DNA of 64,000 nucleotides from the NCBI GenBank assembly GCA_947624255.1, contig CANQJO010000004.1, positions 62,001 through 126,000 of the forward strand. The letters run 5' to 3'. The DNA comes from an uncultured Ruminococcus sp. (lineage in GTDB: Bacteria > Bacillota > Clostridia > Oscillospirales > Ruminococcaceae). Position 1 is the first letter of the stretch. Each line of letters opens with the position of its first letter. Below the pieces are notes generated by a model. That model was not told the DNA's origin. It did not search any database and saw only the letters and a list, made by a program, of their open reading frames with translations. Positions 27,511-62,045 of this stretch are shown here, one piece after another. A program made the position numbers and the translations under genes.

Positions 27511-27586
27511 TGGTCTGAGTGACGGGACTTGAACCCACGGCCTCTACCACCCCAAGGTAGCGCGCTACCAACTGCGCCACACCCAG
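27511..27586 (-). tRNA. tRNA-Pro(GGG), CCA encoded
   Basis: Reverse complement CTGGGTG TG GCGC AGTTGGTA GCGC G CTACC TTGGGGT GGTAG AGGCC GTGGG TTCAAGT CCCGT CACTCAG A CCA folds as a cloverleaf; anticodon GGG. Confidence 0.96.
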
Positions 27587-51003: not shown

Positions 51004-51010
51004 TAACGTC

Positions 51011-51041
51011 ACAGGACAGCATTGCTGTCCTGTTTTTTCGG
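51011..51041 (+). terminator. terminator after gatD
   Basis: ACAGGACAGCA-TTGCTGTCCTGT then TTTTTC. Confidence 0.75.
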
Positions 51042-51169
51042 AATGGAGAGAAATCGCTGATCGGAACGTCTAACGTTTGGAAGCTTTTTTCGTTTTATTG
51101 CTTTTCGGCTTGATCTTTGATTTTCTGTACTGTCTAAATCAGGATCTTTTATAGAAGAACGTGCCCATT

Positions 51170-51243
51170 GCGGCTCTGCGGCTGCGCCGCTCCCCACAGC
51201 TTTGCTGTGGGGCTGCAAAGCTTCAGCTTTGCAGAAGAGCCGC
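51170..51243 (+). other. predicted four-way-junction (cruciform/RNA) element immediately 5' of the ECF sigma gene
   Basis: Closing stem GCGGCTCT (51170-51177)/AGAGCCGC (51236-51243) encloses hairpins GCGGC-TGC-GCCGC (51178-51190), CCCCACAGC-TTT-GCTGTGGGG (51192-51212) and CTGCAAAGC-TTCA-GCTTTGCAG (51213-51234). Confidence 0.8.
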
Positions 51244-51267
51244 CGGAACAGGAAGGGAGGGAGTCCG

Positions 51268-51822
51268 ATGGATCGGGGAGCGGTCTGCTATCGCCGCTAT
51301 CTTGACGGTGATGATAGCGGAATCGTGGATATAATACGTGATTACAAGGATGGACTTATCCTTTACATAAACGGCATCATGGGGAATTTTCTGCTGGCTG
51401 AGGAGATCATGGAGGAGACTTTTTTTAAGCTCGTAACAAAAAAGCCCAACTTTTCCGGAAGAAGCAGCTTCAAAACATGGCTTTATTCAATGGGGAGGAA
51501 TGCCGCAATTGATTTTCTGAGGAAGAATTCAAGGCTCTCCCCTATCGAACCGGATTCTGTCGGAGTTATTACAGACGAACATGATATTGAGAGTGAATAC
51601 CTGAGAGAGGAGCAGAAGATCACGCTTCATAAGGCAATGGAAAAGCTGCTCCCTGATTACAGGCAGGTTTTGTATCTTTCATATTTTGAAGGATTCTCCA
51701 ACGGCGAGATCTCCACGATAACGGGGAAAAATAAGCGGCAGATAGAAAATCTTCTTTATCGGGCAAAAAATGCTCTGAAGGCAGAGCTTGAGAAGGAGGG
51801 ATTTGTGTATGAAGTCATATGA
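51268..51822 (+). CDS. ECF-type RNA polymerase sigma factor
   Basis: GNFLLAEEIMEETFFKLVTKKPNFSGRSSFKTWLYSMGRNAAIDFLRK...LPDYRQVLYLSYFEGFSNGEISTITGKNKRQIENLLYRAKNALK; RBS GGAAGGGAGGG before ATG 51268. Confidence 0.92.
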   Translation: MDRGAVCYRRYLDGDDSGIVDIIRDYKDGLILYINGIMGNFLLAEEIMEETFFKLVTKKPNFSGRSSFKTWLYSMGRNAAIDFLRKNSRLSPIEPDSVGVITDEHDIESEYLREEQKITLHKAMEKLLPDYRQVLYLSYFEGFSNGEISTITGKNKRQIENLLYRAKNALKAELEKEGFVYEVI

Positions 51823-52843
51823 AGAGGTTGCAAGAGATGTTCTCCGGCGGCGTGATGAATACTTAGCCGTGAAGAAGAAAAAACGTGCCGTATTCAAGCG
51901 AAATTTTACTGCTGTTCTGAGTTGTGGTCTTGCCGTACTTGTTGGTTTCGGAATATGGAACATCAGTGGTATACGCAGGACTTCTCCAAATTCCCAAAAT
52001 GACAGATTCAATCACGACAGCTCCTCCGGACTTATTGTTGAAACCATATATATTGGCGAAGACGAGGAAAATACCGATCCGACCGATGCCGTGACCGAGG
52101 ATAGCTCAATATCGGGTATGCCTGAGACAACAACGAATGCTATCGGAACAGCAGATACTGTGACAACATCTGCCGCAGCGGTAACGCTTCAAAATGAACA
52201 GCCTCCTGTAACCAAAACAACCGGATCCGGTCATCATACTACCGAGTCTGCTACTACAATTACAACTACGCTTCATAAAGAATCGACAGATCACACCGCA
52301 CCGGAGGTAACGACCCAAACTACGCTTACCAAAGCTGAAAATCAATCAACAACAAAAAACGAAGTAACTACCGCTGCATTTTCTACTACTACAACGATGG
52401 CAACCTTTTCTGCTTCAACTGATACAACGACAGATAGCTCAATATCTATTGCGACTACTATAACTTCAACAGCATATACCACGACAACAACAGCAAACTC
52501 CACGGTAACAAATACCACAACATCAAATGATGTAGATGCAACGGATACTACGACTACCGTTCCGCCGTACACAGACAGCTATATGATCTCTCAGATAGAG
52601 ACGATCACGTGCGGAGCAACGGTGTATTCTTTTTCCGGAGAAACTGTCCCCTATGAAAGCATTGGCAGTCTTACAGAAAGTATTGATCTGATAATAAAAA
52701 ATGAAGATAGCTCACTCATCAATATTACCGTGGAGATCTACGATGTTAATGGAGATAAAGACCGGAGAGCAGTGAAGCTCCCTATGTATGATATTTATTT
52801 ACTTTATTACCGTGACCCGCAATATAGGGCTTCCGGAGTTTAG
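51809..52843 (+). CDS. putative anti-sigma/transmembrane sensor with long Thr-rich ectodomain
   Basis: MKSYEEVARDVLRRRDEYLAVKKKKRAVFKRNFTAVLSCGLAVLVGFGIW (one TM), about 170 aa Thr/Ser-rich stalk, C-terminal domain; start overlaps the sigma stop by 14 bp. Confidence 0.75.
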   Translation: MKSYEEVARDVLRRRDEYLAVKKKKRAVFKRNFTAVLSCGLAVLVGFGIWNISGIRRTSPNSQNDRFNHDSSSGLIVETIYIGEDEENTDPTDAVTEDSSISGMPETTTNAIGTADTVTTSAAAVTLQNEQPPVTKTTGSGHHTTESATTITTTLHKESTDHTAPEVTTQTTLTKAENQSTTKNEVTTAAFSTTTTMATFSASTDTTTDSSISIATTITSTAYTTTTTANSTVTNTTTSNDVDATDTTTTVPPYTDSYMISQIETITCGATVYSFSGETVPYESIGSLTESIDLIIKNEDSSLINITVEIYDVNGDKDRRAVKLPMYDIYLLYYRDPQYRASGV

Positions 52844-61769: not shown

Positions 61770-62035
61770 TCCGAAAAACAGAAACGCCCCAAGCCGTAAA
61801 GACTCAGGGCGGACTTTTATCCGTGTTACCACCTGAATTCGGAGAAACTCTCCGCACTCACCGCAGCATTACGCCGCTCCCCTGTAACGTGAGGAACACG
61901 CCGCAGACTACACAGCATCACTGCCTTCACCCACAGACTCCGAAGCTACTTCACCGTATTGTTCACACTGCCTTGCACCCTCCGGCAGCTCTCTGTGATC
62001 GCAGATACGGCTACTCCTCTCCATCATCGCTTTGT
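61770..62035 (-). promoter_or_regulatory. T-box leader of valS, with terminator 61777-61812
   Basis: Reverse strand contains T-box AGGTGGTAACACGG, then antiterminator/terminator CGCCCTGAGTCTTTACGGCTTGGGGCG; candidate specifier GUA (Val) at 61949-61947 within TGAAGTAGCTTC. Confidence 0.88.
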
Positions 62036-62045
62036 CATTATTTAC

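Follow-up and report, generated by a model that had tools for sequence, protein, structure and literature searches.

A cloverleaf in the leader of a Ruminococcus ECF sigma factor gene as a probable copy of a small palindromic repeat

The predicted mRNA leader of an ECF sigma factor gene in an uncultured, rumen-type Ruminococcus contains a four-armed cloverleaf (copy A), which is probably one copy of a low-copy, non-autonomous (MITE-like) palindromic repeat lodged between the autoregulatory-type ECF promoter and the ribosome-binding site. As one of three copies scattered over the genome, it is better understood as an inserted repeat than as a control RNA dedicated to the sigma gene. This reading draws on the fold itself, on three homologous copies in both orientations, on relatives in which no copy was seen at the corresponding sites, and on arms which have diverged yet remain perfectly paired. 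Inserted palindromic repeats are easily mistaken for regulatory RNAs. The window discussed below is a stretch of 64,000 nucleotides from a draft genome (2.24 Mb, 48 contigs) in a genus which includes Ruminococcus flavefaciens-like species.

Structure and setting of the cloverleaf

The four-armed fold ahead of the sigma gene is real. Copy A spans 74 nt (51170-51243, no strand being assigned to it or its hairpins), and its 8-bp closing stem, GCGGCTCT/AGAGCCGC (51170-51177/51236-51243), encloses three hairpins joined by junctions of 0-1 nt. The first (GCGGC-TGC-GCCGC, 5 bp, 51178-51190) has the same arms in copies A, B, and C. The second (CCCCACAGC-TTT-GCTGTGGGG, 9 bp, 51192-51212) and the third (CTGCAAAGC-TTCA-GCTTTGCAG, 9 bp, or 10 bp if the loop is reduced to 2, 51213-51234) vary between copies with compensating changes, and the loops also differ. 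Inspected letter by letter, all pairs in copy A are Watson-Crick, and RNA folding of 51042-51260 returned exactly this cloverleaf in the minimum-energy fold (z = -4.4). The four-way junction described in the first-pass annotation, with its 8-bp closing stem and hairpins of 5, 9, and 9 bp, is thus confirmed by both the letter check and folding; the AGCTTTG-like cores which it saw as common to the hairpins correspond to a 20-nt direct repeat (75%) between hairpins 2 and 3, with common CAGCTTTG cores. Folded as DNA, both strands of the cloverleaf do equally well (z of about -6 each).

A tight cloverleaf descriptor produced three matches in 1.96 Mb of the host genome, whereas 20 Mb of order-3 Markov sequence yielded none. 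When long loops were permitted, 30 pairs were reached twice in 10 Mb of random sequence, compared to 31 in copy A, and this near-equality with chance leaves the tight junction and the homology to the other copies to carry the case. No family in Rfam 15 scored above its gathering score for the cloverleaf, and no intrinsic terminator (a GC hairpin followed by a T-run) occurs within 51170-51243, the sole terminator found being at 51011-51033.

The sigma operon is divided from an upstream murT-gatD pair (gene names from Pfam) by the intrinsic terminator of that pair, ACAGGACAGCA-T-TGCTGTCCTGT with a T-run (51011-51033, plus strand, as are the features that follow). Behind it lies an ECF-type promoter, GAGAGAA-N14-CGTCTAA (51046-51073), the only match to this motif on either strand of the window. 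The motif also precedes homologous sigma genes: the consensus GAGAG(A/T)(A/T)-N13-15-CG(T/A)C..A was found upstream of 35 of 56, at a median of 45 nt before the start codon. The AACGTCTAACGTT hairpin noted earlier is indeed present at 51065-51077 but makes better sense as the -10 region of this promoter than as a mere hairpin, and the antisense frame dismissed as junk (minus strand, 51009-51218) gives no sign of being a gene. An extra leader sequence (51080-51169), missing from the short leaders of relatives and with no convincing second copy in its own genome, separates promoter from cloverleaf. The Shine-Dalgarno region GGAAGGGAGGG (51251-51261), of which relatives share a GGAAAGGGGG-type motif, follows the cloverleaf closely, as previously described, although by 7 rather than about 8 nt. 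The sigma factor itself (51268-51822; Pfam Sigma70_r2 and Sigma70_r4_2) overlaps a frame at 51809-52843 with no Pfam match, whose product has a basic N-terminus, one hydrophobic stretch, and a Thr-rich tail; by position and anatomy it is a probable membrane anti-sigma partner.

The distance from promoter to start codon is 201 nt in the window as opposed to about 45 nt in relatives, and some 155 nt, the cloverleaf included, have therefore been added between the two. With a conserved ECF promoter upstream and a predicted transcription start near 51077-51080, the cloverleaf is predicted to be transcribed in the sigma mRNA leader, where the first-pass annotation had placed it, and a secondary effect on sigma is thus possible.

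A by-product of this comparison is a conserved promoter motif for a large family of sigma factors in Ruminococcus, with up to 32 matches to the sigma protein in other Ruminococcus genomes (G001-G059) and only two in the host genome. In many of the homologous genes, as at 51065-51077 in the window, an inverted repeat such as TTCTCATACGTCTAATAAGTGAGAA is centred on the -10 CGTCTAA (upstream regions of L030-L058 and L159-L185), and a conserved palindrome or operator may thus flank the promoter itself. Elsewhere in the window are a T-box leader (61802-62036, minus strand, 111.7 bits) and a tRNA gene (27514-27586, minus strand).

Copies in the host genome and searches beyond it

The three copies occupy unrelated intergenic sites on contigs C4 (A), C3 (B), and C2 (C). 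Copy B (C3, 6359-6444, minus strand) begins at the cysE stop codon, ahead of cysS, and is oriented opposite to transcription, unlike A and C, which both lie in the sense orientation just upstream of a start codon; copy C (C2, 22534-22607, plus strand) separates a uridine-kinase-like gene from ppk. With C as its only source, a covariance model recovers A (49.8 bits) and B (37 bits). Conversely, the model from A and B recovers C at 67.4 bits (E = 2.5e-14), a test not wholly independent in that the A+B alignment was laid out with the C-derived model; its best match other than the copies and their reverse strands reached 15.5 bits. A whole-genome search with the three-copy model returned only A, B, and C with their reverse strands.

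In the A6 alignment, 100% of cells are paired and 16 of the 32 pairs have changed on both sides, with no one-sided changes and none broken. Covariation as high occurred in none of 500 shuffles, and pairing fell to 37-52% when the partner was shifted by one to three columns; the alignment was made to follow the structure and so leans towards pairing, although the stems of each copy can be checked by eye. The covariance-model check proposed at the outset hence recovers the remaining copies from either starting point, with every pair kept. The proposed genome-wide count likewise revealed further copies at unrelated sites, although there are only three and they are diverged rather than identical. 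The outcome falls between the two adverse possibilities raised beforehand, namely many identical copies or a lack of covariation, as diverged copies here accompany complete covariation. A fourth occurrence of GCGGCTNNGCCGC in the host genome was not counted as a copy: it forms no cloverleaf, and the phage-like sequence around it is apparently coding.

The matching sites of relatives, all of them distant, contained no such element. No comparable cloverleaf was present between promoter and start codon in the 56 homologous sigma leaders examined, nor in the uridine kinase-ppk intergenic regions of the eight relatives with both genes adjacent (gaps of 53-141 nt, as against 179 nt in the host genome), nor in the cysE-cysS intergenic regions of relatives. 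In 99 further Ruminococcus genomes, model R1 gave no convincing match under strict filters, a setting which also missed copy B; under laxer settings, another 22 and 38 Ruminococcus genomes yielded weak matches only. Viral, phage, and plasmid collections held no homologue, pattern matches in viruses scoring only 15.8-20.9 bits.

Several candidates from these searches were set aside. DNA similarity searches of relatives returned only partial matches of 15-45 nt, mostly within open frames. Across the genus, the pattern GGGGAGCGGCGNAGCCGC had only one-mismatch matches outside the host genome, and the five identical ones, in five genomes, are presumed to mark a conserved coding site. Apparent cloverleafs ahead of one sigma homologue (L184) were not counted: a reverse transcriptase gene there (L184:445-1876) stands beside two large multi-hairpin structures, just upstream of the homologue, and these are probably retron msr-msd RNA. 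No reverse transcriptase, which a retron RNA would have beside it, occurs among the neighbouring genes of copy A that were scanned.

Origin of the fold and competing explanations

A repeat without genes would spread as DNA by means of a putative enzyme, and palindromic repeats of such sort can fold in single-stranded DNA during replication. Its pairing would be kept largely at the DNA level, through template-switch correction of imperfect palindromes, selection on the folded DNA form, or both. DNA template switching in replication turns imperfect palindromes into perfect ones (PMC7202029), and full covariation among copies is for this reason no proof of RNA function; template switching alone would require no function and would mimic covariation. 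Within the sigma mRNA, the insert would most likely do no more than add an insulated structure to the leader, and any influence on mRNA stability would be modest at most. Of the two possibilities offered by the first-pass annotation, a co-opted mobile repeat fits far better, given copies at two unrelated sites, one of them opposite in orientation, and homologous sigma genes without a comparable cloverleaf. Against an inserted repeat stand the copy number of only three and the lack of a readable exact empty site, the nearest homologous sigma gene being only about 70% identical; no common flanking duplication was seen by eye at the copies. Nor is a mobilising enzyme linked to the element: a Y1_Tnp search of the host genome found two IS200-like TnpA genes, both on contig C34 and without obvious related hairpins beside them. 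The pair lies within about 7 kb, at least one gene next to a TnpB-like frame, on a contig that differs in appearance from the others, possibly as an integrated element or as contamination.

Some form of RNA regulation, sigma-specific or shared, is a possible but on the whole doubtful explanation. A cis-acting RNA dedicated to the sigma gene, with cloverleaf and extra leader gating ribosome access or transcript stability, would be in keeping with a very stable fold that sits within the predicted leader, downstream of the conserved promoter and a few nucleotides from the Shine-Dalgarno region. The folding model also lets a pyrimidine-rich stretch of the extra leader, before the cloverleaf, pair with that region, although such pairing could easily be fortuitous given how purine-rich the Shine-Dalgarno is. 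The same model depicts the cloverleaf as a self-contained domain whose deletion leaves predicted Shine-Dalgarno accessibility unchanged (mean 0.32 with, 0.31 without). Coupled with the same element at two unrelated sites, homologous leaders that lack a counterpart, and no Rfam match, this renders a dedicated RNA quite unlikely, and the proposal of a regulatory RNA controlling sigma translation consequently fits far less well. A class of structured RNAs serving one function at all three operons (sigma, ppk, and cysE-cysS), whether riboswitch, protein-binding leader, or RNase processing site, would accommodate the covariation and the sense orientation of A and C, and the genes abutting all three copies could be co-regulated. 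However, copy B is reversed relative to its own operon, no other Ruminococcus genome searched gave a convincing score, and the three copies share no conserved unpaired letters able to form a binding pocket. All 98 pairs in the descriptor-called stems are Watson-Crick and none is G-U, with one G-U permitted per stem; a complete lack of G-U pairs is unusual for RNA helices. We regard such a class as unlikely.

The equal folding of perfect palindromes on both strands and their intergenic positions would also suit a DNA-level cruciform or protein-binding palindrome selected near promoters, as a supercoiling sensor, boundary, or pausing site. Such a role appears very improbable, as A lies downstream of a promoter and B at a stop codon, with no common promoter distance, and the element is not kept in relatives. 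We give almost no credence to a chance structure or assembly artefact. While the loose descriptor does find 30 pairs in random sequence and the genome is a fragmented draft, the mutual recovery of copies by covariance models argues otherwise, and the explanation is already contradicted by the A+B model match, the tight descriptor, and the A6 covariation.

Relation to known repeats

Multi-hairpin repeats recur in other Oscillospirales. In genome G064, from a different family of the same order, cloverleaf repeats are common and fall into at least three sequence types, with 11 strong matches in 400 kb, nine of them outside open frames of at least 120 codons. One type has a GCGGC-TTC-GCCGC hairpin and C-tracts in common with the window element (E of about 1e-5), a link confined mainly to that one GC hairpin and the C-tracts, such that the common architecture may be convergent. 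A recurring four-hairpin palindromic repeat occurs in Ruminococcus G038. Like the window element, the G064 types (with CCCCCCTTGTTAAAGGGGGG, ACCACCCCG, and TAAAGAGGGTG ends) and the G038 type enclose several small perfect hairpins, GCGGC-NNN-GCCGC often among them, within closing arms that are palindromic; they differ in that these arms are longer, the central hairpin has a loop of 15-30 nt, there are many copies, and sequence homology to the window element is weak. We read these repeats as the same kind of thing, by likeness of architecture rather than established descent. One G064 cloverleaf (L276:3006-3129, contig C17) lies wholly within a long open reading frame, possibly as an in-frame insertion. 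A RAYT-like Y1 transposase gene in that genome (L281:1426-1905, contig C57) has a GTAGGGGCG-type palindrome pair within its own ORF, unrelated to the cloverleafs, and a RAYT link was rejected.

It is conceivable, if somewhat unlikely, that these repeats represent a new class of mobile DNA element recognised by shape rather than sequence, the cloverleaf moving as folded single-stranded DNA. Each copy could then rewrite its arms yet keep every pair, and there would be many sequence families across the Oscillospirales and a putative mobilising enzyme. Should the cloverleaf shape itself be copied, an enzyme that mobilises folded single-stranded DNA could be sought in a tractable setting, the repeats of Oscillospirales from rumen and gut.

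Among described systems, REP/REPIN sequences with TnpA-REP (RAYT) (PMC3116915, PMC3733652, PMC8266576) resemble the window element in forming perfect hairpins in intergenic DNA, and single-strand folding as a substrate is a plausible route for both. The window element is, however, not of the 20-40 bp, single-palindrome, GTAG/CGTC-tagged type, and the Y1_Tnp search of the host genome gave no RAYT-type gene, which membership of REP/REPIN would require with the same palindromes at its flanks, but only the two IS200-like TnpA genes. Our literature search, in which subscription journals were little covered, found no description of a cloverleaf intergenic repeat, and the word "cloverleaf" is absent from the accounts of ERIC, RUP/BOX, and Correia/NEMIS elements that we consulted (PMC2229807, PMC2267715). 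Those elements are likewise short, non-coding, palindromic, and intergenic in either orientation, and may occur within mRNA leaders as part of the transcript. They mostly form one long hairpin or a hairpin pair in place of a cloverleaf, and they usually occur in larger numbers, with less difference between copies, than the three described here. The closest known kind is thus the group of small intergenic stem-loop repeats to which ERIC, RUP, and Correia belong, with a cloverleaf taking the place of one or two hairpins.
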